From the IMG/VR virus record IMGVR_UViG_3300003322_000772, positions 1-42,785 of that record: a stretch of 42,785 nt of DNA; one strand, 5' to 3'. This DNA comes from a virus. Below the pieces are notes generated by a model that worked only from the letters and a program-made list of their open reading frames with translations, searched no databases and was not told the DNA's origin. This document shows, in pieces, positions 19,568 to 36,683 of this stretch; within the stretch, counting starts at the first letter, position 1, and each line of letters opens with the position of its first letter. Made by a program: the position numbers and the translations under genes.

Positions 19568-19597
19568 CGCCAGAGCCTATCGAGCTTTGGCGTTTTT
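19568..19597 (+). terminator. Intrinsic terminator upstream of the methyltransferase gene
   Basis: CGCCAGAGC pairs with GCTTTGGCG (one G-U), 7-nt loop, then TTTTT. It stops the high-level transcript of the SSB-like gene. Only 28 bp separate it from the next start codon, so the two genes downstream must rely on readthrough or antitermination. Confidence 0.85.
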
Positions 19598-19625
19598 GCT
19601 TCCACATCCTTCTGAGGCTCAAGCA

Positions 19626-21008
19626 ATGCAACTCGTAAAACGCAATGAAATCGTCATCCCATCTGATCGTCAGCGCACCGAATTCGACCCCGAATTTATC
19701 CAGGAACTCTCCCAAGGCATCCTTCAAAAAGGGCTGTTGCACGCCCCCGTCATGCGCGAGGAAGGGGGTCAGAAGGTCCTCGTTGCCGGGGAAACCCGCC
19801 TCAAGGCCATCGACAATCTGTGGATGCTCGGCGGCACGCTACGCTACAACGGCCAAGCTGTACCCGAAGGCATGGTCCCATTCGTGACCCTCGGCCAGCT
19901 TTCCGAACTCGAAGCCGAGGAAGCCGAGCTCGAAGAAAACGTGCGCCGCCGCAATCTCACCTGGAAGGAAGAGAGCCAGGCCCTCGCAAAACTCCACCGC
20001 ATCCGCTCGCAACGCGCCCAGGCCGAAGGTCGCGTTCACACCGTGGCAGACACGGCCGTTGAAGTGAAAGGACGTAGCGACGGGTCATATCAGGAAGCTG
20101 TGCGCAAGAGCCTCATCGTTTCGAAATTCGTTGACAATCCCGAAGTTGCAAAGGCCAAGAGCGTCGAGGAAGCCTTCAAGATCGTCAAAAAGCAAGAGGC
20201 TCAAGCCAAGCACATAGAACTGGCCAAAACCGTCGGCGCCACCTTCACGGCTTCCATTCACGAAGTCTACAACACTGACTGTTTGACGTGGATGGCGCAG
20301 TGCCCAGAAGGTACATTTGATGTCATTCTCACCGATCCCCCGTACGGTATGGGTGCCGATTCCTTCGGTGATGGTGGCGGCGGCCGTCTGGCAAACAACG
20401 AACACCACTACAAGGACGACTACGCAAGCTGGAAGTCCCTGATGTCACAGTGGGCCCCTCTCTCCTACAAGGTCGCCAAGCACCAGGCTCATGCCTACGT
20501 CTTCTGCGACATCGACAACTTCCACGAACTGAAGAAGATGATGCAGGAAGCTGGCTGGTACGTATTCCGCACACCATTCGTGTGTACGAAGCCTGGCAGC
20601 GGCCGTGTCCCCCTGCCGTCGGAAGGTCCTCGTCGACAGTATGAAATTTTGCTGTACGCCATCAAGAATCACAAAAACACCACGGCCATCTATCCGGATG
20701 TTCTGACTAGCTATGCCGACGACAACACCACGCACGGTGCTCAGAAGCCTGTCGCCCTGTATGAACAGTTGCTGCTTCGGAGCGTGAAACCAGGCGACGT
20801 GGTGCTCGACAGCTTCGCCGGAAGCGGCACCATCTTCCCATCCGCCCACAAATATCAATGCAAGGCCGTGGGCCTGGAAATGAACCCGGAATACTACGCG
20901 ATGTGCCTCAACCGCATGAAGGAACTAAGCGCCCCGAGCGGCGCCTCGTCCACGACTTCCGTGGACGCGCTGAGCAACGAACTGCAAAGCCTCATGGGGG
21001 GCCGCTAA
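19626..21008 (+). CDS. ParB-like domain fused to a beta-class DNA methyltransferase
   Basis: 460 residues. ATG 19626 has GAGG upstream; a longer frame would begin inside the terminator. Residues 1-200 resemble a ParB/Srx-type N-terminal domain: VLVAGETRLKAI (51-62) fits the GE-x-R motif, followed by helices with EENVRRRNLTWKEE. Residues 210-435 are an amino-methyltransferase with motif IV DPPY (237-240) before the SAM-binding motif I DSFAGSGT (395-402), the beta-class order, modifying adenine N6 or cytosine N4. The tail has SVDALSNELQSLMGG, vaguely like the DSDALLD tails of other early proteins. It probably methylates phage DNA; the target site is unknown. Confidence 0.88.
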   Translation: MQLVKRNEIVIPSDRQRTEFDPEFIQELSQGILQKGLLHAPVMREEGGQKVLVAGETRLKAIDNLWMLGGTLRYNGQAVPEGMVPFVTLGQLSELEAEEAELEENVRRRNLTWKEESQALAKLHRIRSQRAQAEGRVHTVADTAVEVKGRSDGSYQEAVRKSLIVSKFVDNPEVAKAKSVEEAFKIVKKQEAQAKHIELAKTVGATFTASIHEVYNTDCLTWMAQCPEGTFDVILTDPPYGMGADSFGDGGGGRLANNEHHYKDDYASWKSLMSQWAPLSYKVAKHQAHAYVFCDIDNFHELKKMMQEAGWYVFRTPFVCTKPGSGRVPLPSEGPRRQYEILLYAIKNHKNTTAIYPDVLTSYADDNTTHGAQKPVALYEQLLLRSVKPGDVVLDSFAGSGTIFPSAHKYQCKAVGLEMNPEYYAMCLNRMKELSAPSGASSTTSVDALSNELQSLMGGR

Positions 21009-21009
21009 T

Positions 21010-23403
21010 ATGCCCATCCACCCAACAGGCCCCAGCAATGCCCGTATCATGCTCGTTGGAGAATTCCCCCACGAACAAGACCTTTTGAACAGCACCCCCT
21101 TCGTCGGTGGCCCTGGCTACGAGCTTCGCAAGATGCTTCAGGAAGTCGGAGTCTATGCTGCGGACTGCTACATCACAATGGTGATGAAGGACCGCATCCC
21201 GCAATCCCGTGTCGAAGCTGTTGTCGCAACCAAGAAAAAGGACATCACAAATGCTCATGTGCTCCACGCAGGTAAATATGTACTCCCAGCTGTGGTGGCT
21301 GGAGTGGAACAACTCCGTGCAGAGGTGGAACGAGTTCGCCCTCATGTGGTGGTCACCTTTGGCAATCTGGCACTGTGGGCTCTTACTGGGCAATGGGGGG
21401 CGATGAACTGGCGATCCTCCATCATGGAGAGCGCGCTCGTGCCAGGTGTCAAAGTGGTGCCGACCTTCAGCCCGGCCATGGTGATGGTACAGTGGAAGCT
21501 GCGGGGGCTGATGGTTCACGACCTCGGAAGGGCCGTCGCACAGTCTGCGTTCCCGGAAATCCGTCGCCGGGAGTACAAGTTCATCGTACGCCCGACCTTC
21601 GAACAGGCTAAAAGCCAGCTGGAACGGATGATTGAGGTTGCCCAGATCTTCCAACAGGAAAATGATGGCAAACTCATGAAGATGGGCGGCGACATCGAGA
21701 CTCGTGCGGGGCACATCTCCTGTATCGCATTCGCATGGTCCCGCACGGAAGCCATCTGCATTCCTCTGATGACCGTGGACAATCCAGAGGGCTATTGGAC
21801 CCTGGAGGAGGAAGCCGAGCTTGTGCATCTGATCTACCGATTGTGCCAACACATCACAGTCGTGGGTCAGAACTGGAACTACGACGCGCAGTATATCTTC
21901 CGTCACTGGCACTTCATCTGCCCGAGCGTGAAGGACACGATGGTCCAGCAGCATACGTGCTTCTCCAATTTGGAAAAGAACCTTGCATTCCTGTCCTCGA
22001 TGTACCTTGACGATCACCTGTACTGGAAGGATGATCGTACGAACTGGAAGAAGGGCGAGGACGGCGAAGGGGAGATTAACTACTGGACGTACAACTGTAC
22101 GGATGCGGTACGTACCCTGGCTATTGAAGAAGTGCTGGGCAAAGTGGTGACGAAGCTCGGCCTCGACGCTGTTGATGACTTTCAGCAGCGTCTCACCGGT
22201 CGTGTGCTGCGCACGATGAACAAGGGCGTGAGAGTGGACTTGCAGGAACGAGCCCGTCTTGCAATGATTCTCCAAGGTGAAGCTGCAAATCGGCAACAAT
22301 GGATGGCAGACGTTATCGGTCGCGAAATCAACATCCGCTCCCCTGCTCAGATGGCAGAGTTCTTCTACAAGGAAATGGGAATGCGGCCCATCATCGACCG
22401 TAAGACGAAGAGCATCACCACCAACGATGAAGCGCTGCACAAGATCGCAGAACGTGAACCGATTCTGCTACCCATCACTCGTAAGATTTCGGAGTTACGG
22501 TCTCTGGGAGTGTTTCACAGCACCTTCGTCAGTGCCCCTCTCGATGTTGATGGTCGGATGCGCTGCTCGTTCAACGTGTGTGGCACGGAAACCTACCGCT
22601 TTGCGTCCAGCAAAAATGCATTCGGGACCGGTGCTAACCTTCAGAACATCCCGAAGGGAGGAGAAACGGAAGATTCGGGCTTGGAGCTGCCAAACATTCG
22701 TGAACTCTACATTCCTGATCCGGGCAAGGTCATCTTTGACATTGACCTCGACAGTGCCGACCTCCGAATCGTTACGGCCGAAAGCAATTGCCTTTGGATG
22801 AAAGAGCAGTTCGCCAACAAGAGGAAACCATATGTGGAGGTGATGCGGGAGTACTACAGCAACAGAACCATGACCAAAGACTCTCACCCACGAGAATATG
22901 CGATGTTCAAATCTCTGTGCCACGGAACCAACTACCTCGGCACAGCAGCAGGCATTGCCCCCCGCATTGGTTTGTTGGTGCACGAAACGGAACGTATCCA
23001 GAAATGGTACTTCGGAATGTGCCCTGAAATTCGGGCGTGGCAGGAGGAAATCAAAAAGCAGGTGTCCGGAAGGCGCTGGATTCAAAACGTCTTTGGCTAC
23101 AAGTATCACTTCTTCGATCGCATCGAGGGTACGATCTTCAATCAGGCTATTGCGTGGATTCCGCAGTCGACCGTCGGTTGTCTGATTAACCGGGCGTGGG
23201 AAAGGATCGAAGACAACCTGCCGGAAGTAGACATCCTTCTGCAGGTGCATGATTCATTGGTCGGTCAATTCGATCTCTGTCATGGGGAGTGGATGCTGAA
23301 GCAGATCATCGAGCAGTCCCAGGTTCCTCTCCCGTACGATGAACCTCTCATTATTCCAGTTGGAATTGCTAGTAGTTCCAAGTCCTGGGGAGATTGTCGA
23401 TAG
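21010..23403 (+). CDS. UDG-like domain fused to family A DNA polymerase
   Basis: 797 residues, the replicative polymerase. Residues 10-180 resemble family 4 uracil-DNA glycosylase: MLVGEFPHEQD (14-24), PFVGG and VVVTFGNLAL (113-122). The catalytic blocks look degenerate (GEFPH for GEAPG, TFSPA for HPSP). A 3'-5' exonuclease follows with DIE (228-230), NWNYD (288-292) and YNCTD (361-365). The polymerase has TETYR with NLQNIP (526-547), motif A DLDSADLR (579-586), motif B R628 to K634 with NYLG, and motif C VHD (746-748). It starts one base after the methyltransferase stop. Similar fusions exist in SPO1-type phages. Confidence 0.93.
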   Translation: MPIHPTGPSNARIMLVGEFPHEQDLLNSTPFVGGPGYELRKMLQEVGVYAADCYITMVMKDRIPQSRVEAVVATKKKDITNAHVLHAGKYVLPAVVAGVEQLRAEVERVRPHVVVTFGNLALWALTGQWGAMNWRSSIMESALVPGVKVVPTFSPAMVMVQWKLRGLMVHDLGRAVAQSAFPEIRRREYKFIVRPTFEQAKSQLERMIEVAQIFQQENDGKLMKMGGDIETRAGHISCIAFAWSRTEAICIPLMTVDNPEGYWTLEEEAELVHLIYRLCQHITVVGQNWNYDAQYIFRHWHFICPSVKDTMVQQHTCFSNLEKNLAFLSSMYLDDHLYWKDDRTNWKKGEDGEGEINYWTYNCTDAVRTLAIEEVLGKVVTKLGLDAVDDFQQRLTGRVLRTMNKGVRVDLQERARLAMILQGEAANRQQWMADVIGREINIRSPAQMAEFFYKEMGMRPIIDRKTKSITTNDEALHKIAEREPILLPITRKISELRSLGVFHSTFVSAPLDVDGRMRCSFNVCGTETYRFASSKNAFGTGANLQNIPKGGETEDSGLELPNIRELYIPDPGKVIFDIDLDSADLRIVTAESNCLWMKEQFANKRKPYVEVMREYYSNRTMTKDSHPREYAMFKSLCHGTNYLGTAAGIAPRIGLLVHETERIQKWYFGMCPEIRAWQEEIKKQVSGRRWIQNVFGYKYHFFDRIEGTIFNQAIAWIPQSTVGCLINRAWERIEDNLPEVDILLQVHDSLVGQFDLCHGEWMLKQIIEQSQVPLPYDEPLIIPVGIASSSKSWGDCR

Positions 23404-26494: not shown

Positions 26495-28381
26495 TCAGCT
26501 ACCGATAACTTCAACTGCGAAGTTCGTACCGTTGGCAACAATGGGGATGGTAGCATTGCCGCCACCACTGTCAGAGTAGAACTGGATGGCATAGTAATCA
26601 CCAGTGCCATTCGGCGTGTCGTAGTATTCCCCCTGAAGTATCAAGGGATTGGTGCCGCTGGCCTGGATATCCATCAGCGTCGCAATTTGGGAGCCGTTCT
26701 TGTTCAGCATTACCGCATACCGAGAACCGTTCGTAGTAGCCTGGACGTAAATCGAAGCCCGAATTCGGACGAGCTGATTTTTTCCTGGGGTAATAACAAA
26801 AGTTGTAAGGTTGCCCCAACTGTAGGCATCCGAGATGACAGAGTTCCATTGCGGATTGCCGAAGCCGCCGGAAGTCGTAATGGAAGTCGCAGTAGTCTTG
26901 AGAGCGCAGATGGGATTCGAACCCGGAACTCGAGACACGCAGTTGATGTTGCCGAGGAATCGCGCAGTGCCGTAGGTGTAGTTCGCATCCTGCCCCCACA
27001 TGACATTCTTCGGCTGGTTCCCGAAGAAGGAGATACCCCCGTAGGTTTGGCCCAGGATGGCACCGTAGCTGAAGCCGGATTCCTGAATGTTGTTGACCCG
27101 GACCTGCGAAGCGTGAGCGATGTAGAGGATCGGCTGGCCGTTGTTGATGGTCGCGTAGGCGCCGCCGTTGAAGACCCGTGTGTCCTGCATGTTGAAGGTT
27201 GGGTGCTGCAGGGCCGACGCATTTCCATTGGAGGACAGGATGGCAATACCACCAATCTTGCAATCTTCGATGTAGCCGCCAATCATGGAAGCCTGCATCG
27301 GGTACGGCGTCCCCGTCCCATTGCCGTTCGTGTCTCCTTGATTAAGGGTAACGGCCCAGTCGCAGAAGTGCATGCCAGTCGACAGGATGGTGCAGTTCTG
27401 AATCTGATTGGCCAGGAAGATGCACGACGTGCCTTCCGTGGCACCAGAACTCAGCGAACGGAACAGGCCAATGTCGCAGTTCGAGATGAGACAGTCTTCC
27501 GAAGCACTACCGGCCCAGATCCCGAGGTTGCAGTCCATGATAAGGCAGTGGTCTGTGCCCCATGCCCAGCACTGGACTTCCAGGTAGATGCCACGGCGGA
27601 AGCCGGTGATGTAAAGATTTGTGGCTTTAAATTTCCTGGCATAGGCAGCGTGGATACCCGAAGCATTCGAGGACGAAACATTGTTGACGATAGCCAGATC
27701 ACGAATGTGCACATTCTCAAACTGGTTGGATTCGCTGGTGCCCGGAACATTGATGGCTGGGATGTCACCAGTGTTGAACTGTTTGATGACAGTGCCGCCG
27801 GCAACAGCAAAGGAACCGGTCGTTGTGGACCAGCCAGAGCCATGGAAGATCTGACCTTGCAACAGGTTCAGAGTGCCGTTGATCTTGTAAACGCTCTTCG
27901 GTGCGAAGACGGTCCCACCAATCCCCGCAAAGTTAATGGCTGCTTGCATGGTGCTGGTGTCATCCGTGGTGCCATCGCCTTTTGCCCCAAACCATTTCAC
28001 ATTGATGGCACCGGCATATTCCCTCTTCCAGCGGCCTCCATCCGAAGCCACAAAAATAGTACCTCCGTTGTCGAGACTCGTCGTGTCAGCTGCATCCAGA
28101 TAGAAAGGGCCACCACCACCATCCCCAGCAGCGTAGTAGCCCGTGAGGAAAGCTTGCGTGAAGCGTGTCTTGTCGATGGCCTTCAGGGCCGTTACGGAAT
28201 TCACAACCTCCAAGAACTGATTCTTGAGAATCGCGTCGAGAGTCTGGGAACCGTAACCGATGTTGCCTGCGCCATTGGCAGAGGGCAGACCATTGGGGCC
28301 GTTGATAATGGTATCCACCCCGTTAAGCCATGCTGCCGTGATGGGAGTGGCTGGGTTGTAATCTTGAAAAGGATTGCTCAT
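26495..28381 (-). CDS. Tailspike, pectate-lyase-like beta-helix
   Basis: 628 residues, the receptor-binding protein with probable polysaccharide-degrading activity. Residues 1-120 form a particle-binding and neck part. INVKWFGAKGDGTTDDTSTM with QAAINFAG is the classical start of the pectate lyase 3 / GH55-type beta-helix. The following 300 residues are short strand repeats rich in N, G and I. The last 130 residues (from about KTTATSITTSG) are a separate beta-rich trimer or carbohydrate domain. It overlaps the upstream gene by ATGA. Substrate specificity cannot be read from sequence. Confidence 0.88.
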   Translation of the reverse strand: MSNPFQDYNPATPITAAWLNGVDTIINGPNGLPSANGAGNIGYGSQTLDAILKNQFLEVVNSVTALKAIDKTRFTQAFLTGYYAAGDGGGGPFYLDAADTTSLDNGGTIFVASDGGRWKREYAGAINVKWFGAKGDGTTDDTSTMQAAINFAGIGGTVFAPKSVYKINGTLNLLQGQIFHGSGWSTTTGSFAVAGGTVIKQFNTGDIPAINVPGTSESNQFENVHIRDLAIVNNVSSSNASGIHAAYARKFKATNLYITGFRRGIYLEVQCWAWGTDHCLIMDCNLGIWAGSASEDCLISNCDIGLFRSLSSGATEGTSCIFLANQIQNCTILSTGMHFCDWAVTLNQGDTNGNGTGTPYPMQASMIGGYIEDCKIGGIAILSSNGNASALQHPTFNMQDTRVFNGGAYATINNGQPILYIAHASQVRVNNIQESGFSYGAILGQTYGGISFFGNQPKNVMWGQDANYTYGTARFLGNINCVSRVPGSNPICALKTTATSITTSGGFGNPQWNSVISDAYSWGNLTTFVITPGKNQLVRIRASIYVQATTNGSRYAVMLNKNGSQIATLMDIQASGTNPLILQGEYYDTPNGTGDYYAIQFYSDSGGGNATIPIVANGTNFAVEVIGS

Positions 28382-28890
28382 GGGACTATCCTTGTAAAAA
28401 AAGTTCCTGGAGAGATTGTACTTTCAACCCTGACGAGCATCGGGGGCATCGAGTCGAAAACGTAGCTCAGATCATTACCGCCTCTGTTGATGTTGCCGGG
28501 CACGGCCCACCCAGGAATGGCATAAGAGGGGATGCCAAGGACAACTGTCGAGTGCACCCATGGACCTTGAGGGATTCCTTCCTGAATGAACAGCAAGTTG
28601 ATATTCGAGGGGAAGGCGCATCCGGGATTCGCGTAACCTGGAATGGCATTGCTAGTGCGGAGGCTACAGCCCAGTACGAACTGATCCGGAGGCTGGGGCC
28701 TGCTCCAGGGTACGCTTTGGTTATCCTTCACTCCCCGTACAAAGTCTTGTGGATTGCGAATTTCCTTGTGATGCCTGCAAACCCAGCGATTATCCCAGGT
28801 CTTAACCCCTTGCCCGGACTTTTGTTTCTTGCCACAGAGGTCGCAATAGAAATTCCACTGCCCTTCGGCAAAGTAGTCGGAAACACCCAT
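28378..28890 (-). CDS. Zinc-ribbon virion-associated protein with IPG repeats
   Basis: 170 residues. The N-terminus has FYCDLCGKKQKS, then WDNRWVCRHH and IRNPQDFVRG, a zinc ribbon known from many phage late proteins (CDxCG, then V-C-x(2)-H/D, then R-x-P-Q-D-F-V-R-G). The middle carries repeats built on IPGYANPG and IPGWAVPG. It lies directly before the tailspike and overlaps it by 4 bp, so it is probably a tail or tailspike-adaptor component. The exact role is unknown. Confidence 0.65.
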   Translation of the reverse strand: MGVSDYFAEGQWNFYCDLCGKKQKSGQGVKTWDNRWVCRHHKEIRNPQDFVRGVKDNQSVPWSRPQPPDQFVLGCSLRTSNAIPGYANPGCAFPSNINLLFIQEGIPQGPWVHSTVVLGIPSYAIPGWAVPGNINRGGNDLSYVFDSMPPMLVRVESTISPGTFFTRIVP

Positions 28891-28892
28891 GA

Positions 28893-29231
28893 TTACTGTC
28901 CTGCAACTTCGGCGCCACCAACGGCGAAGGTCACGCCATTGCCTAGCGCATGAAGCTCACGCCCCGCTGAAATCTTTTGATTGATGAGCTCGGGGCACAG
29001 GTAGGATTTCCCAGCCGGGACAGTAACTGTGACAAGGCAATAGTCATCTGCCACAGCCGTCGATGGTGGAGTATTGTAGATAATGCATTGCACAGCCGCT
29101 GCCGTCCGGTTCACCAGCACTGCAGCCTGAATTGTGGCGACCGTGGAAGCCGGAGCCGTGTACAACACTGCTGTGGCACTTGCAGTAAGTTTCTGTGGCT
29201 CAACCAACTGCTTGATTGTGGTGGCTGACAT
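28893..29231 (-). CDS. Small beta-sandwich-like structural protein
   Basis: 112 residues; ATG has GAAAGGA upstream. Thr/Val/Ala-rich with alternating strands (TAVLYTAPASTVATIQAAVL, DYCLVTVTVPAGKSYLCP) and a final GGAEVAGQ. It is the style of small phage virion proteins that coat or extend tails. Two bases separate it from the next gene. No specific family assignment. Confidence 0.65.
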   Translation of the reverse strand: MSATTIKQLVEPQKLTASATAVLYTAPASTVATIQAAVLVNRTAAAVQCIIYNTPPSTAVADDYCLVTVTVPAGKSYLCPELINQKISAGRELHALGNGVTFAVGGAEVAGQ

Positions 29232-29248: not shown

Positions 29249-29710
29249 TTACTGTGCCTGCCCGTTTGCGATGAGCAAAGCTTTGATGGCGTTGACGAGG
29301 GCGATGGCAGTTGGAAGGTCCGTAGCATTTGCCGGGAGGGTTACGGGGCCTTGCGGGGCCTTGCCATTGAAGCCAGCCTTACCAACAACTGTCAAATCCG
29401 CGTCGACCTTGACATTGTTGAACTCCACATCCGCTAAGAGCAATGCGGCATCCTGGCGTAACTGACCAACGGCCGCGGACGAATCTGTCACCGTCGCCAG
29501 CATTGTCTGAATATTTCCTAGAGCGGCCAGGGCCTCACCCAAAGCTCCGCCATTAACAGACACTTCTGTAGCACTGGGAGGTGGATTGTCCGGGCTGTAG
29601 GCCTCCACCAGCCTTTTCCGTAGAATCTCCAGCCACCGTTGCCAGATGTCCCTATCGAACCCTGCTTCAGCATAGGGCGGTGTCGGTGGGATGGGCTGTT
29701 GTGAAGCCAT
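29249..29710 (-). CDS. Tail-associated protein, unknown
   Basis: 153 residues, ATG with GAGGA upstream. Begins with a Pro-rich stretch, then FDRDIWQRWLEILRKRLVEA, a helix often found in small proteins near tail fibres. Helical, Ala-rich middle, a beta turn region (VDADLTVVGKAGFNGKAPQG) and a helical end. The 'GKAGFNGKAPQG' run is collagen-like in spirit but too short to form a triple helix. Probably virion-associated. Confidence 0.6.
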   Translation of the reverse strand: MASQQPIPPTPPYAEAGFDRDIWQRWLEILRKRLVEAYSPDNPPPSATEVSVNGGALGEALAALGNIQTMLATVTDSSAAVGQLRQDAALLLADVEFNNVKVDADLTVVGKAGFNGKAPQGPVTLPANATDLPTAIALVNAIKALLIANGQAQ

Positions 29711-29722
29711 CTTCCTCTCCCG

Positions 29723-31039
29723 TCAGTACTTCCAGGCCGTCGCGTAGCCCAGAGCCCGCAGCTCCGGCAACTGCTTCTGGAGCCGTTGTCCGATGTCCGT
29801 GCGGTACATGGGACTGTTCGGGATTTCCAGCTCCTTCAGCACAGCATATGCGCACTCGCATGCATCTCTTACCGTGTCACCGGTCCCGGAAGTCACGAGA
29901 ACGTAGTCCCCGGCAGTGACCATCATCGGTTTCTCGACGATACTGCCGTTCACTTGCACTGGACCTTTGCCCAGCTTCATCTCGGCGGGATGGATGCAAT
30001 GCCGATTCTTGTTCGTGATACCCCACACGGGAAAGCCCGTTACAGCTTTCTTCGTCAGAGTGCTGTAGGGGAAGTCGGGAATGGCCATCACCACTCCGGC
30101 TGCAATCTCGAGATCGGGCTTGAACATGTCACGACCCTGCAACAGATCAAGCATCCATTCGACAGGCTCCGGGTGCAAGGCCTGCTGGATCTGGAAAAGA
30201 GGCCAGCCCGGACGACAGGTGAACTCCAGCGGCCACGGATTGCCCTTCTTGTCAATGATAACGGAGACGTCAATGAAGCCGGTGTACCCTTGACGGAAGA
30301 GCTCCCCTTCGAGCGGACACAGCATCTTCTGAGCCAGGCACGACTGTTCCTCGGTAACATAGCGCATCAGCGTGCCCATCTCGCCCGTATTGACGCCGAC
30401 TTCGCCATTCATGAGCTTCTTGAATTCGAAGTTTTCGAGGAAGTATTGCGAGAATCCATTGCGACCGAACCAGCCGCCCACTGCCATTTCGATGCCTGGG
30501 ATGAATTCCTGCATCAGGAAGTTGGGTTTCCCTTTGCCGACCCTCTGCCAGTGATCAAGCATGAAGCACATGTCCGCCGGGCTCTTGCTGACATACGAAA
30601 GGGCCTTGTCAGCGTCACCGTCGGGCTTCGAGACGTAGCGCTTCTGTGTCCTTTTGACCATTGCTATGGCTTGTGGATACGAGGAGAAGCAGATGCTGGG
30701 GATCGTGTCGATACCGGCAGCTTCAAGAACCCGCTGACCAGTCCCTCGCTCCAATTCCCAGGCAGCGGTGGCGACTGATGGTCCCCATAAGGGAAACCCC
30801 CGTTTGCGGTAGGGTTCCAGGGCGTGGAGGTACTTGGTATTGTCACTGCACATGATGAGGTCCGCCCACTTCATGTGAGGTTCCCAGGCATTGACCTTCT
30901 CAATGAGCCCATCCCCGACTTCGGAGCGGCCACCTTCCTTTGTGGGTCCCATAAAGACCCGCACGCTATGCCCTGCAGCCTCGCAGCGAAGGGCAAAGTC
31001 CAAAAAGCAGGAGGTAGCATCAATCAGAAGGATGTTCAT
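29723..31039 (-). CDS. PurD-like ATP-grasp ligase
   Basis: 438 residues. Overall architecture of phosphoribosylamine-glycine ligase (PurD): Rossmann-like start MNILLIDATSCFLDFALRCE, GPSVATAAWELERGTGQRVL (87-106), KPDGDADKAL (138-147), QEFIPGIEMAVGGWF (177-191), VNTGEMGT (216-223) and YTGFIDVSVIID with LEFTCRPGWP (252-280). ATP-grasp enzymes join a carboxylate to an amine. PurD has EFNxRFGDPE at the metal site; here it is EFTCRPGWPL, so Asn is replaced by Thr and the DPE block is lost, suggesting a different substrate. It sits alone in the late operon with no purine genes nearby. Palindrome copy 9 and a terminator lie upstream, so it is separately controlled. Confidence 0.82.
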   Translation of the reverse strand: MNILLIDATSCFLDFALRCEAAGHSVRVFMGPTKEGGRSEVGDGLIEKVNAWEPHMKWADLIMCSDNTKYLHALEPYRKRGFPLWGPSVATAAWELERGTGQRVLEAAGIDTIPSICFSSYPQAIAMVKRTQKRYVSKPDGDADKALSYVSKSPADMCFMLDHWQRVGKGKPNFLMQEFIPGIEMAVGGWFGRNGFSQYFLENFEFKKLMNGEVGVNTGEMGTLMRYVTEEQSCLAQKMLCPLEGELFRQGYTGFIDVSVIIDKKGNPWPLEFTCRPGWPLFQIQQALHPEPVEWMLDLLQGRDMFKPDLEIAAGVVMAIPDFPYSTLTKKAVTGFPVWGITNKNRHCIHPAEMKLGKGPVQVNGSIVEKPMMVTAGDYVLVTSGTGDTVRDACECAYAVLKELEIPNSPMYRTDIGQRLQKQLPELRALGYATAWKY

Positions 31040-31075
31040 GGCAGTTCAGGTCCGTTCGGTTGCAAGATTATTGGA

Positions 31076-31117
31076 GTTTTGTGCGCACGTTACAGCGGAG
31101 TAATGTGCGCGTAGAAT
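31076..31117. promoter_or_regulatory. 42-bp palindrome, copy 9
   Basis: Arms 31076-31093 and 31100-31117 with an unusual centre AGCGGA. It ends 36 bp before the ATP-grasp start and just after a terminator in the direction of that gene. Confidence 0.85.
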
Positions 31118-31130
31118 TCGGGACAGGGGG

Positions 31131-31188
31131 AAAAAACGGCCAGGCGCGGGTTGCAACTTCCCTGTGGGCCGTAGGCCCGGCCTGGCCC
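31131..31188 (-). terminator. Branched intrinsic terminator after the ejection genes
   Basis: Read on the minus strand: GGCCAGGC pairs with GCCTGGCC across a loop that contains its own GGGCC-TAC-GGCCC hairpin, and is followed by GTTTTTT. It ends the transcript of the ejection genes before the ATP-grasp gene. Confidence 0.75.
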
Positions 31189-31277: not shown

Positions 31278-31306
31278 TTGACAGAGGGGTGGCAGACCAT
31301 TATAAT
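31278..31306 (+). promoter_or_regulatory. Perfect consensus promoter facing against late transcription
   Basis: TTGACA (31278-31283), 17-bp spacer, TATAAT (31301-31306). All twelve bases match sigma70 consensus at optimal spacing. It points rightward, into the 3' end of the leftward ejection-protein gene, so any transcript would be antisense to it. No gene follows on the plus strand. Confidence 0.75.
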
Positions 31307-31361
31307 AAAACCGGGTTTACGCCCCCGGAGCTGTCGGGCAGGGGGCGGAGGGAGTGGGGGC

Positions 31362-33197
31362 TTACTCTTCCTCTTCTTCAGGACGTCGCCGCCCGGCAGC
31401 CTGGCCGGCGCTGATGCCGCCTTGCCGTGCCATCGCCATCATAAGCATCTGCTGCAGCTGCTGCGAGGCTCTCATCTTCAGCCCCTTGTCGTTCGTCCTC
31501 TTGACTGCCTCGGCCCCGATGCGCAGCTGCTTCAGATCGGCGGGATCGACCAGCTTAGCGTTCACGAGGACCTTCTGGAGACGCTCGAATTCCCCTGCGA
31601 TATCCTTCGGTGGCGTGTTCGCAAGGTGCTTGGCGACAGCACCCTGGATGAAGGGCAGTCCTTGCGGATCACGTGCGAGGCTCTTAGACATCTTCTGGAA
31701 CTCAGACGCCGAGCCGTAACCATACAGGAAGTAGGGCAGCTCATCCTTTGCCTTGGCCAGCTTCTCTGCACTGTAAGCATTTCGGTACTTGGCTTCGATA
31801 TCACCCAGGCCGATGCGGCTGGTATACTGGTTGAAGGCGTCACGCAAAGCCCCACGAATCTCCGTGGCCGTGGCAGAATCCACAGCAGCCGCGCCCGTGG
31901 CGGGCTTGCCTTCCAGTTGTTTGCCCCACTCACGAATTCTGTTGTCCACGGTCTCGGCATACTTGGCCCGCACGGCCGGATTCTTGAGCCGGTCCGCGGT
32001 CAGTGACTTCATCAGGTTCTGATAGTCGGCATTGCTAATGTTGCCGAGTTGGACTTCCGTTACCAGTTTCTTTCTGAACTCGGCGAATTCTGGTGTGGTG
32101 CTGAAGGTTTGACCTTGCTTTACAGCGTCTGTCACACCCTGAAACATGCGCTCACGGTAAATCTGGCTCGCTGGCTTGATCATCTGCGTGATGCGTTCCA
32201 TGTCCTCAGCCTGCTTGCGGGCAGCGGCTCCCTTTTCCTGGGCCTCCTTTTTGCCACGAGCGAAGGACTCTGGCAGGGCGCCCTCTGGGGCCGGCAGAGC
32301 TGGACGTTCGCCAGGCGACGGAGGAGTGCCACCAGGCCCACGGGGAACGATGCCCCGCTCCGGACTCAGCGGGGTCATCTCACCCGTGCTGGTCTCCCAC
32401 GGCGGACGTACACCTTGCTTAATACCATTCAGAGAAGGATCAGCTTTGCGAAGTGCTTCTTGCGTTGCGATTCGATTATCGCTGCCTACGAGATGATCGA
32501 CGTACCAGTCATCCGAACCGCCGAAGAGTTTCTGTTGCATCTTCTTCGCAGCAGCTTCATTAAGCTCGCGATTAGGGGAGAAGATGCCGCTGAAAGCCCG
32601 GCTCACACCAGGCACGTTGCCATAGGCAATGTTACTGACAAAGTGAAGCATCTTCGATGCTGTCTTGGTAAGGAAGGAGGCGGCAGTTTCGCCGGCCCCG
32701 CCAGCGGCAATCCCGGCACCGAAGGTTACTGCCTCCGGCGCACCCATTGCTTTACCGGCTTCATCCACGAGACCCATGGCAGCACCACCGCCAGCTCCAC
32801 GGATCATACGCTCTCGCAGAGGTAGAGCCGACATGGCCTCACCAGCGCCTTCGGCAAAGCGGCCGATGGGGCCAGGAATGACCTTCCCTGCCGCTTTCAG
32901 AACGCCCGGCAACGCGGCACCTGCAGCAGCGCCAGCCACAGCTCCGCCGCCCATGGCACCAGCAACTTCTTTGGGGGCTACAACCTCCGGCTCACGAGGC
33001 TTGAACCAATCCGCCACAGTTCGTGCAGCCCCACTCGCAGCATCCACGTCAACGGGAGTTGCCCCTTCCGTCGGGGCATAGCCCATTCCTTGCGAGCGAA
33101 TGTAATCTGCCAGCTTCTGGGCACTTTTGGTGTCCCCGTTGGCGTGGGCTTGCCGCAGTGCATCATAAGCGGCGGATAGGTCTTTGGCTTCGGCCAT
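31362..33197 (-). CDS. Large ejection (internal virion) protein
   Basis: 611 residues, AAAGGAACAAATC upstream of the ATG. It begins with a helical unit (LSAAYDALRQAHANGDTKSA, then QKLADYIRSQGMGY) typical of phage DNA-transfer proteins. Residues about 75-175 are Gly/Ala-rich hydrophobic stretches (VAGAMGGGAVAGAAAGAALPG, shortened here) that could insert into membrane. The rest is charged and helical with Gln-rich parts and ends in EEEEE. Third of three ejection-type genes in a row, so it is probably delivered from the capsid to form the DNA conduit. No enzymatic motif (such as lytic transglycosylase) is visible. Confidence 0.7.
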   Translation of the reverse strand: MAEAKDLSAAYDALRQAHANGDTKSAQKLADYIRSQGMGYAPTEGATPVDVDAASGAARTVADWFKPREPEVVAPKEVAGAMGGGAVAGAAAGAALPGVLKAAGKVIPGPIGRFAEGAGEAMSALPLRERMIRGAGGGAAMGLVDEAGKAMGAPEAVTFGAGIAAGGAGETAASFLTKTASKMLHFVSNIAYGNVPGVSRAFSGIFSPNRELNEAAAKKMQQKLFGGSDDWYVDHLVGSDNRIATQEALRKADPSLNGIKQGVRPPWETSTGEMTPLSPERGIVPRGPGGTPPSPGERPALPAPEGALPESFARGKKEAQEKGAAARKQAEDMERITQMIKPASQIYRERMFQGVTDAVKQGQTFSTTPEFAEFRKKLVTEVQLGNISNADYQNLMKSLTADRLKNPAVRAKYAETVDNRIREWGKQLEGKPATGAAAVDSATATEIRGALRDAFNQYTSRIGLGDIEAKYRNAYSAEKLAKAKDELPYFLYGYGSASEFQKMSKSLARDPQGLPFIQGAVAKHLANTPPKDIAGEFERLQKVLVNAKLVDPADLKQLRIGAEAVKRTNDKGLKMRASQQLQQMLMMAMARQGGISAGQAAGRRRPEEEEE

Positions 33198-33209: not shown

Positions 33210-34619
33210 TTACTTTGCTGGGTAGAGGTTCAGAAGGTCCTGGATGTCCGGTGGGGGTGCGGCGGCCTCCTGCCGGTTGAGGGTGTCCGTGATAGACTGC
33301 CGCAGGGATTTCATCTTCTTAATCGTACCCAGCTTAATTCCCTTCTTGGTCGCAGCCTCAATGACCTGTGCCGGAGAAGGATACTTCTCCAACCGCTTCT
33401 CCGCTTCCTCGCGGGTCTTCTGAATCTCCGGGTCCGGGCTCCTGGGCACAGCCTTCAGCCTTTCTCGAACGAAGTCCGCTGCATTGACAAGCTTGAACAT
33501 GATCTCCAGGTCCTTATCACCTGGCTTCGCCTCCACCATGTCGCTCATCTCTTTGATGACGTCCTTGTTCGCGGAGCGCCCGCTTCCTGCCGTCGCCAGC
33601 TGCGCAATCTCGAGACCCAGGCCCTTCGTCGCGGTCTGATAGATCTGCTGGATTTCCGGAGTCTGCTCGTTGCCGCTCATGTTCCGAACAGCATTGAGCA
33701 GGGTGTCGGGACTGCTTAAGTGGGCAAAGATGCTACCCGTTTGATTCTTGGCCATCGTGCCAACAAGGTCCAGACCGCGCACAGTCTCGTTGGCATAGTT
33801 GACAGCGGCGATGGTGTTACGACGGCGAATCTCGCCTCCGGCTGCCTGTTTCTCTTTACGGGCCTCGATAATGCTCTGAGCTAGTTGATTGCGAATAGCC
33901 AGGCTCTCTTTATGATATTCAGTGAGAGACTCGCGCGCCGCTGCCCTATCCTTCTGCGCCTCCACCCGCTCTTGATGGCGATCCTCCTCAGCTTGCTTGC
34001 GTTGACGCTCTTGTTCTTGGTGTTCACGGACCTTCTCCAGGTAGTCCAGCCTTTTCTGCCCGGTCAACGGTGCCATCGCACTCTGCGTTGCAAAGGCTTT
34101 GTACTTCGGATCGGATGGCAAAGGAATGTCAGCCGGATTCACTCCGGAAGCAAGTGCAGCGTCCACTAACTTCTTGTGATTCTCGGGGCTCGGGTCAGCC
34201 AGCACGTCTTGCGCAGCTGTGGAGAGGGCTTCGGCTTTGCGAACGCGAGCCTCTTCCAGGGTCTTCCCTTCTTTCTCAGCAATGTCAAGTTGACCCTTGG
34301 CGAGACGGTCCATCTCTTGTGCCCCGTCAAAGTCCCCACGGAGCAGAGCTTGCTGGCTCGCACGGCCATAGAGCTTTGCGAGTCCAGTGGCGTTAGTCGT
34401 AGGCTCCTCCTGCAGAGCCTGTTCAGATTGCAGCCACTGAGACATTGCTGTCTTATTCTGCAAAGCTTGCTGTTGCAGCTGATTGTTGATTTTGGCTGTT
34501 GCGATTTGCTGCTGACGGAGTTCAAGCTCAGCTTGCGACTGTCGCTGACCGAGAAGTGCCTGCTGACCGGCGAAGTCAGCAGCCGCGGCAGCGTCGAGAG
34601 CCGGAAAAGAAAGTGCCAT
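33210..34619 (-). CDS. Coiled-coil ejection (internal virion) protein
   Basis: 469 residues; start at 34619 with AAGGA-type site upstream. N-terminal 70 residues are Gln/Ala-rich helices (RQSQAELELRQQQIATAKIN). A long charged coiled coil spans about 195-265 (EHQEQERQRKQAEEDRHQER). The final part is helical. Composition and position between two other ejection-like proteins match the P22 gp7/gp20/gp16 style trio, though no residue-level homology is claimed. Confidence 0.7.
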   Translation of the reverse strand: MALSFPALDAAAAADFAGQQALLGQRQSQAELELRQQQIATAKINNQLQQQALQNKTAMSQWLQSEQALQEEPTTNATGLAKLYGRASQQALLRGDFDGAQEMDRLAKGQLDIAEKEGKTLEEARVRKAEALSTAAQDVLADPSPENHKKLVDAALASGVNPADIPLPSDPKYKAFATQSAMAPLTGQKRLDYLEKVREHQEQERQRKQAEEDRHQERVEAQKDRAAARESLTEYHKESLAIRNQLAQSIIEARKEKQAAGGEIRRRNTIAAVNYANETVRGLDLVGTMAKNQTGSIFAHLSSPDTLLNAVRNMSGNEQTPEIQQIYQTATKGLGLEIAQLATAGSGRSANKDVIKEMSDMVEAKPGDKDLEIMFKLVNAADFVRERLKAVPRSPDPEIQKTREEAEKRLEKYPSPAQVIEAATKKGIKLGTIKKMKSLRQSITDTLNRQEAAAPPPDIQDLLNLYPAK

Positions 34620-35291: not shown

Positions 35292-36683
35292 TCACGTATT
35301 ACCAAGGTTAATATCGAATTCGAATGCTTCCAGTCTCAACGGTGTGTTGTCCGTATGCAGGAGCTCAAAGGCCCTGCGTCTGCTGCGGCCCAGACTTCGG
35401 AGCTGCTTCCGCATGGACGACATATCAACAGTGCGGAAGGTAGAGTAGCTCTGGTAGTCATCATCCGAATAACGAACGGATACGGTAGTCGAGGCTGTAT
35501 CCCCTACGAGTGTGAGGGCCGAGAAGAATTTCTCTTTTGTACTTCCCCCATCATAGGGCAGAGTCCGAATCCGGCACTGGATAGCCCCCGACACGTCACT
35601 GTACGTTGAGGACGATAGCAAATCCACGTGACCGGCCGTCGTATGCAGCAGATAGTCGTTCATGCCATCGGTGACGTAGAAGGAATATGGCCAGTACGAT
35701 TCCACACTGCCGTTGTATCCTGTCCAGACATACCACTCCTGCATCGTCAAGTCCAGAACCAGCGTAATGTTGAGGTCGCCGAGCAGAAGACAGTAGAAAT
35801 TATGCCCTGTGTACTTGAAAGCCAGGGCCCGAACCAAGGACAGGTTGCTGCGATTGAGCACCTTCTCCACGAACGGAGTGGAGAGGTCAGCCATCGATAG
35901 ACCCGTGAGCATGCGGACAGTGCGTCCACGTGAACCTCCTTGAGAGAGGAAGATAGTTTTGTCGTCCATGGTGACGACGGAATCACCACTGGCACAGCCC
36001 AGCTTGTACGAAGCATTCCCGGCGGGGGAAAGGGGGCTGCCCGGCGGCGGATTGTTGTTGTCGTAGAATCCCTGCGTGCCCTTCGAACAAAAGGCCATTG
36101 CGTAGTTCAGATGGCGGAAGAGCACAACTCCCTGGCCCAGAGCCTGGTCCGTACCGATGAAGTTGAGCGCGGACCATTGTGTCGGGTCTTGAAGTGCCGA
36201 ACCGTGGATGATCCCGTCCTTTCCCATCACGTAATACGTCCCGTCGATGAGCACGAGGCCTCGAACAGTCGTTGCCGGGTAATCCGAGTCCGTGACCTTT
36301 GTGAACGTGATGCCATCAAATGTCCACATCCCAGCCGTCGATTTCAACACCGCAATGGTACTGCTACCAAAAGTGACATCGGAAACCACATCATACAGCA
36401 GATTGAAGACCGTCACCGACGGAATGGTTGCGGCCAATGACCTGTCCAGTGCCCACACCGTATCGTTAATGATTACATAGGACTTCCCATTGAGGTTGAA
36501 GGCCCCTTGCCCAGTCCCGACTGCGAAACTGGCAAAGAGGCTCGTCCCCGGCCTTTTGACCACGAGTTCCCGACCAGGTTCCTGATCGACGTACGAATTG
36601 TAAAGGACGGAATCCTTTGTCAGAGTTCCGTCCCTTGTAGTGATGGTTTGCCGCAGGGGAAACCTTGGGTCATCGGTTGGCAT
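35292..36683 (-). CDS. P22 gp10-like tail hub (packaged DNA stabilisation) protein
   Basis: 463 residues. It shows the typical start of the gp10 family: a SVLYNSYVDQEPG segment, then VVKRPGTSLFASFAVGTGQG, followed by short strand repeats that fit a beta-propeller-like hub (YVIINDTVWALDRSL, TKVTDSDYPATTVRGLVLID). DPTQWSALNF and LFRHLNYAMAFCSKGTQGFYD match the conserved middle. It plugs the portal channel after packaging and carries the tailspike in P22. It overlaps the gp4-like gene by 14 bp, the same order as in P22. Confidence 0.82.
   Translation of the reverse strand: MPTDDPRFPLRQTITTRDGTLTKDSVLYNSYVDQEPGRELVVKRPGTSLFASFAVGTGQGAFNLNGKSYVIINDTVWALDRSLAATIPSVTVFNLLYDVVSDVTFGSSTIAVLKSTAGMWTFDGITFTKVTDSDYPATTVRGLVLIDGTYYVMGKDGIIHGSALQDPTQWSALNFIGTDQALGQGVVLFRHLNYAMAFCSKGTQGFYDNNNPPPGSPLSPAGNASYKLGCASGDSVVTMDDKTIFLSQGGSRGRTVRMLTGLSMADLSTPFVEKVLNRSNLSLVRALAFKYTGHNFYCLLLGDLNITLVLDLTMQEWYVWTGYNGSVESYWPYSFYVTDGMNDYLLHTTAGHVDLLSSSTYSDVSGAIQCRIRTLPYDGGSTKEKFFSALTLVGDTASTTVSVRYSDDDYQSYSTFRTVDMSSMRKQLRSLGRSRRRAFELLHTDNTPLRLEAFEFDINLGNT

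Follow-up and report, generated by a model that had tools for sequence, protein, structure and literature searches.

A PurD-derived ATP-grasp ligase encoded among the virion genes of a tailed phage is probably not a GAR synthetase

One of the closest known counterparts of the ligase reported here is PurD. For the A. aeolicus enzyme, the published contact list assigns Lys143, Lys214, Glu192, Lys103 and Glu185 to ATP, and Arg287, Asp212 and Glu292 to glycine (PMC8880213). The PurD motif R-[LF]-G-D-P-E corresponds to PS00184 (PMC3261824). Not every PurD-like protein is a GAR synthetase (GARS), however. A 2011 study of archaeal purine synthesis judged the extra haloarchaeal proteins rrnAC0307 and Hlac_1553 not to be GARS; as described there, they have no GARS_N match, miss Mg sites, have lost the Asp of R[LF]GDPE and carry a divergent P-loop (PMC3261824). 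The phage ligase shares traits given in that description of the non-GARS paralogs: its GARS_N match and its GDPE Asp are lost, and its P-loop is divergent.

We analysed a window of 42,785 bases, the whole virus record IMGVR_UViG_3300003322_000772, which belongs to a tailed phage and carries the genes for head closure Hc3, capsid and tail spike on its minus strand (Pfam, PHROGs). The ligase gene lies on the same strand (29723-31039) and encodes an intact protein of 438 amino acids. An initial annotation, made from the sequence, had described an open reading frame at this position with a PurD-like layout and an EFTCRPGWP block. Frame, coordinates, layout and block were all recovered, and Pfam, TIGR00877, phmmer and the full-length fold agree with them. 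In Pfam, GARS_A scored 36.4 bits (cut-off 27) and GARS_C 31.7 bits, which is below its cut-off of 34.8. NCBIfam TIGR00877 (purD) gave 74 bits (E 1e-20) and did not reach its curated cut-off of 288. Solved PurD was matched by phmmer with E 7.5e-14, and a profile of the ligase matched canonical PurD at 100% with E 2.3e-45. When the ligase was compared with four relatives (L103, L104, L001 and L003), dN/dS was about 0.11-0.15, with dN of 0.26-0.31 and a dS of about 1.9-2.5 that is near saturation. Purifying selection acts on the gene, and a random open reading frame at 29723-31039 is ruled out by conservation together with dN/dS.

A first scan of IMG/VR returned 17 loci whose products are 41-68% identical to the ligase over the best segment. 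With a broader alignment, at least 572 stretches were found to encode a relative, the weaker of which may include ordinary PurD; the best 80 were used. A PHROGs search with the ligase protein nevertheless gave no match, and the top match in the viral structure library was a generic ATP-grasp protein, 11% identical. Bacterial and archaeal genomes contained 402 relatives. Among the best 80 of these 402, nine are phage-like (40-57% identical, two of them in Paraburkholderia isolates), and the remaining, cellular relatives are 30-35% identical, from taxa that include Patescibacteria, Micrarchaeota, Thaumarchaeota, Acidobacteria, Elusimicrobia and Balneolaceae. Annotated phage records yielded 14 matches. 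The copy in MW202796, 51% identical, is missing from the annotation of that record. The other 13 align over 48-96% of the query with 21-30% identity; two of these, inspected in translation, carry EFN or EYN with RFGDPE, which makes them canonical PurD. This little-noticed family is present in many phages, bacteria and archaea. A search of the open-access PMC literature found no description of the ligase clade in phages, an absence that is not proof. Two further arrangements were seen among the records: two PurD-like genes are adjacent in a Nanoarchaeota contig (L102:6652-7992), and the ligase of record G032 (L191, 10693-11999) is split into two overlapping frames by a frameshift or a sequencing error.

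The 177 sequences were reduced to 140 at less than 92% identity, of which 131 form the rows of alignment A4 (65 phage, 66 cellular). L019, L020, L021 and six PurD were kept out of this alignment, and the partial copies L014, L016, L017, L022, L136, L164 and L174 are absent both from it and from the count of 98 loci given below. In a tree of 81 hand-picked rows of the 177, the 45 phage, 30 cellular and 6 PurD rows each fall on one side of a branch (SH-aLRT 95, 96 and 100), a clean split that is partly expected because the groups had been named from identity. The 75 clade rows stand apart from the six PurD with an SH-aLRT of 100 in this tree, which was built without haloarchaeal rrnAC0307 and Hlac_1553.

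The AlphaFold2 model of the ligase has a pLDDT of 95 and a pTM of 0.92. It aligns with PurD 2yw2 along its whole length (Z 36.0, 396 residues, 23% identity) and clearly less well with PurK and PurT (Z ~24). Structure prediction against PurD and other ATP-grasp families, the check suggested in the initial annotation, returned a complete PurD fold, and the model is both a full-length PurD fold and an ATP-grasp fold. Residues were mapped from PurD to the ligase by sequence profile rather than by superposition of coordinates. Of the published A. aeolicus PurD contacts (PMC8880213), K143 (K138 in the ligase), K214 (K207), E192 (E184) and R287 (R276) are kept, and K103 (R98), E185 (Q177), D212 (E205) and E292 (L281) are altered. 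N285 (T274) and D290 (W279) are further replacements. Across the 131 rows the PurD ATP-binding residues are invariant or conservatively replaced, and E95, R98, K138, E184, E205, K207, E272, T274 and R276 are the same in every row. These include the residues by which an ATP-grasp enzyme is recognized: two ATP lysines (K138, K207), the ribose Glu (E184) and the metal Glu (E272).

The EFTCRPGWP block occupies codons 272-280 (30200-30226, minus strand), where PurD has EFNxRxGDP. E272, T274, R276 and P280 are invariant in the 131 rows; W279 is found in 65/65 phage rows, whose cellular counterparts predominantly have Tyr at this position (60/66). The ligase therefore lacks the PurD motifs R-[LF]-G-D-P-E and EFN, having RPGWP in place of the former and, like all 131 rows, T274 in the latter. 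At the N-terminus, the GGREH loop (GGREHAL in PurD) is replaced by ATSCFLD in the window protein. Two acids have been added. Codon 257 (30269-30271, minus strand) encodes Asp257, an extra candidate metal ligand that is Asp in 63 of the 65 phage rows and, among the 66 cellular rows, Asp in 55 and Asn in 11; the PurD sequence aligned with the ligase has Tyr at this point. The second, Glu220, is present in 129/131 rows (TGEMGT compared with TGGMGA in PurD). EFTxRxGxP, TGEMGT/TGEQGT and Asp257 form the signature of a PurD-derived paralogous clade.

Other ATP-grasp ligases carry an acidic metal ligand on the strand that corresponds to Asp257. In D-Ala-D-Ala ligase the metal residues are D257/E270/N272, and in PurT and PurK the third position of the metal motif is not Asn. 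Asp257 looks to occupy this usual ATP-grasp metal position, in a site that would be remodelled and not broken; by analogy with these other ligases, Asp257, Glu272 and Thr274 look to stand in for the Glu and Asn of PurD. The altered metal site of the initial annotation is real when measured against PurD, but its ligands seem to be swapped rather than lost, because Asp257 is conserved and the equivalent strand of other ATP-grasp enzymes bears an acid.

The full PurD fold and the largely intact ATP site could also belong to a diverged true GAR synthetase that boosts the purine supply late in infection as an auxiliary metabolic gene, and surveys place phage purD among the purine genes (PMC11097641, PMC11360552, PMC12043954). 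We regard this as quite improbable. The score lies far under the PurD cut-off, the Asn of EFN is kept in none of the 131 rows, the acids of the PurD GDPE are replaced, and the N-terminal loop is lost. Moreover, real PurD above the cut-off occurs beside the clade member in 9 of the 18 genomes that hold one, including both Paraburkholderia. The nine genomes without PurD above the cut-off (G001-G007, G013, G018) are seven small archaeal or CPR genomes, the Acidobacteria MAG G013 and the Rhodanobacteraceae genome G018 (5.5 Mb), in which the sole near-full-length match is the phage-type copy. A clade member could replace PurD in single hosts, although incomplete or masked assemblies also explain this pattern. 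When purM and purF were searched for in these seven small genomes and in two larger genomes, neither was found in G001 and G003, so that in two of the seven small genomes a clade member exists without purF and purM; the other five have a purM- and/or purF-like match below the cut-off. The initial annotation had noted no purine or nucleotide genes near the ligase; among the 30 window ORFs, part of all ORFs, that were scanned with Pfam, none belonged to purine synthesis. On motif, score and co-occurrence we reject a true GAR synthetase, and what stands is the earlier picture of a PurD-type ATP-grasp ligase with changed substrate and metal sites, encoded in the late (virion) direction and probably not making GAR.

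All neighbours described next are on the minus strand. Upstream of the ligase lie the gene for head closure Hc3 (phrog_578, 35292-36683), a gene for a second putative internal virion protein of 469 amino acids (33210-34619), whose role is suggested by its position, and a large gene (31362-33197) for a 611-aa protein that position and size mark as a putative internal virion or ejection protein. The 611-aa protein has no Pfam or PHROG match; homologs are present in phages G019 and L103. Downstream follow a small gene with a homolog in G019 (29249-29710), a gene for a 112-aa protein (phrog_20100, 28893-29231), one for a 170-aa Cys/His-rich protein of cluster c5 that related phages also keep downstream of their ligase (28378-28890), and the tail fibre/spike gene with a pectate-lyase-like match (26495-28381; Pfam/PHROGs). 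We compared this arrangement in 98 loci, the window included; a gene was counted as large if it was open-ended or encoded 450 aa or more. In 45 loci the start of the ligase abuts or overlaps the stop of such a gene on the same strand; in 31 it follows at 16-700 nt (322 nt in the window) and in 10 at a greater distance; seven loci are too short to tell and five differ. L015 and L030 are without the usual upstream gene. The upstream large proteins fall into several sequence clusters. Downstream of the ligase are small tail-type proteins and, in many phages, lysozyme-like and small membrane proteins, which, without a family match, we read from their sequence as probable lysozyme, holin and spanin.

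Of 80 loci anchored on Hc3, 31 contain the ligase; where at least 7 kb downstream is available, it is present in 25 of 27. Some of these loci are near-copies, and in L252 the ligase is on the other side. No ligase was found anywhere in the 48-kb record of G019, whose polymerase and major capsid protein are 72% and 88% identical over the aligned part to those of the window. There, the terminator and palindrome directly precede the homolog of the 29249-29710 gene. G020 (30 kb), also without the ligase, has a 1371-aa gene followed after 198 nt by a downstream gene. Within a large group of tailed phages the ligase gene is long conserved yet dispensable, since it is widely kept but cleanly absent from these two relatives.

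An inverted-repeat scan detected a palindrome upstream of the ligase (31074-31119) with 20-nt arms and the core TTAC-N6-GTAA at 31090-31103. The ~40-bp palindrome with this core, whose arms resemble TTCTATGCGCACA, occurs 11 times in the window, compared with 0.08 expected (2187, 5375, 5964, 8586, 12583, 15607, 18788, 24431, 31090, 35261, 42130). The copies are apparently intergenic, several of them ~40-60 nt ahead of a start codon, and the core is also found in related phages (8 copies in L103, 14 in G019). It is probably a phage-wide promoter or operator. The core lies no more than 120 nt ahead of the ligase in only 10 of the 98 loci. A terminator-like GC stem, GGCCAGGC/GCCTGGCC, with a 34-nt loop followed by T6, is present at ~31132-31187 (minus strand), although a simple terminator scan did not pick it up. 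That scan placed a terminator-like hairpin after the upstream large gene (31311-31328, minus strand); such sites are no commoner in the region than in shuffles, and the upstream spacer folds no better than shuffles (z -0.49). Across the window, no RNA element reached Rfam gathering scores and ARAGORN found no tRNA. A perfect sigma-70 consensus, TTGACA-17-TATAAT (31278-31306, plus strand), faces away from the ligase and runs opposite to the ejection-type gene. The initial annotation had credited the ligase with its own palindrome and terminator. Both do precede it, but they are not private to it, because the palindrome has 11 copies and the next gene begins 12 nt past the ligase stop; the 11 copies rule out a private operator. 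Similarly, separate regulation of the ligase and the ejection genes agrees with the window and with some near kin, but not with the 45 loci in which the genes touch or overlap, nor with the genome-wide palindrome. Spacing and strand make it likely that the window ligase heads a transcription unit that extends across the small genes as far as the tail spike.

With fold, kinship, residue changes, conservation, gene position and absence in two relatives established by computation, we consider it probable, from sequence and model, that the protein is a catalytically competent ATP-grasp carboxylate-amine ligase of the PurD-derived clade and not a GAR synthetase. In the proposed reaction, a carboxylate held by Arg276 would be phosphorylated by ATP to an acyl-phosphate, which an amine would attack to form an amide. 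Phosphorylation of a carboxylate is most likely because the PurD fold and ATP site are kept, and both substrates should differ from those of PurD because its glycine contacts and the loop on the phosphoribosylamine side are replaced. The most likely target, tentatively, is not DNA but a small metabolite of the infected cell that resembles an amino acid or peptide; in our ranking a small molecule comes ahead of a virion protein, with DNA far behind both. The ligase may make or alter such a metabolite and thereby affect the host, a defence system or a competing phage, with cellular kin doing similar tailoring, a possibility that we hold open without leaning fully on it. Cellular kin adjoin methyltransferases (9 of 66 scanned neighbours) and haem-oxygenase-like iron enzymes (7 of 66), some have an arginase-family or GNAT protein beside them, and absence from some phages suits an accessory role. 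However, such neighbours are scattered and belong to a clade other than the phage one, and the phage genes have no recurring partner of this kind next to them. The cellular neighbours, mostly not conserved, gave no firm lead to the reaction. In L037, L057, L061, L076, L077 and L094 (Burkholderiales and kin), a methyltransferase or haem-oxygenase-like iron enzyme adjoins the ligase relative, and these neighbourhoods are possibly a small biosynthetic operon.

The place of the ligase immediately behind a large gene, often overlapping it, in 45 of 98 loci and with several upstream clusters, together with its late orientation, would suit a post-translational ligase that couples an amino acid or peptide to one of the virion proteins before assembly, most likely the upstream ejection-type protein. 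We think this unlikely: G019 and G020 retain the large gene without the ligase, added genes also collect at the last place of an operon, and cellular kin mostly lack conserved neighbours, with no virion gene among the families shown for the neighbours scanned. A PurD-type N domain, moreover, usually takes a small nucleotide-like substrate. A related and rather unlikely scenario is that a PurD paralog became a dedicated amide ligase, co-made with the ejection protein and charging that protein or a cooperating small molecule with an amino acid. If true, an amide ligase beside an ejection protein would mean a ligase-made virion modification, a reaction not yet described. The initial annotation had also considered late modification of DNA, ahead of packaging, or of the cell surface. 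For the cell surface there was no evidence in either direction. Modification of nucleotides or DNA would agree with late timing and with the nucleotide-like substrates of PurD, but no hydroxymethylase, radical-SAM, PLP or other partner was found in the 30 window ORFs scanned, and the sole candidate is an ordinary-looking DNA methylase. A hypermodification cassette was therefore rejected, and we hold DNA as the target to be highly improbable. Far from the ligase, the window encodes a ParB-like N domain joined to an N6/N4 DNA methylase (19587-21008, plus strand) and a uracil-DNA glycosylase domain fused to DNA polymerase A (21010-23403, plus strand).

Genes of this clade can be recorded as viral purine genes. 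The ligase should not be booked as one; it most likely joins molecules other than those of PurD, because its rebuilt active site defines a separate family. The clear signature of the clade, its intact catalytic residues and the existence of natural relatives that lack the gene allow the reaction to be sought directly. Once found, it would help to tell the role of extra PurD in archaea and bacteria.

PurT and PurK catalyse different reactions; they share the superfamily with the ligase (Z ~24), but their structural match is clearly weaker than that of PurD. With PurD (TIGR00877; 2yw2, 1gso, 2xcl) the ligase shares the whole fold, the domain order, the Lys/Lys/Glu of the ATP site, the Glu of EF(N/T) and the motif Arg. 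Unlike PurD, it scores 74 of 288 bits, has lost the GGREHAL loop, shows no purine context, and carries D212 to E, E292 to L, N285 to T and D290 to W exchanges plus the extra Asp257 and Glu220. Among annotated phages, MW202796 (Caudoviricetes sp. ct2os315, Manatee Spring) has its 51% identical gene directly after ejection-type genes, whereas its tail-fibre genes are at another place and its replication genes differ. The extra haloarchaeal PurD-like proteins are approached by the Halarchaeum relative L021, 30% identical and within the cellular clade; rrnAC0307 and Hlac_1553, compared here by their published description, are cellular and not viral. Non-GARS relatives in haloarchaea were thus already known in 2011 (PMC3261824), and what is new, by the literature searched, is the phage lineage.
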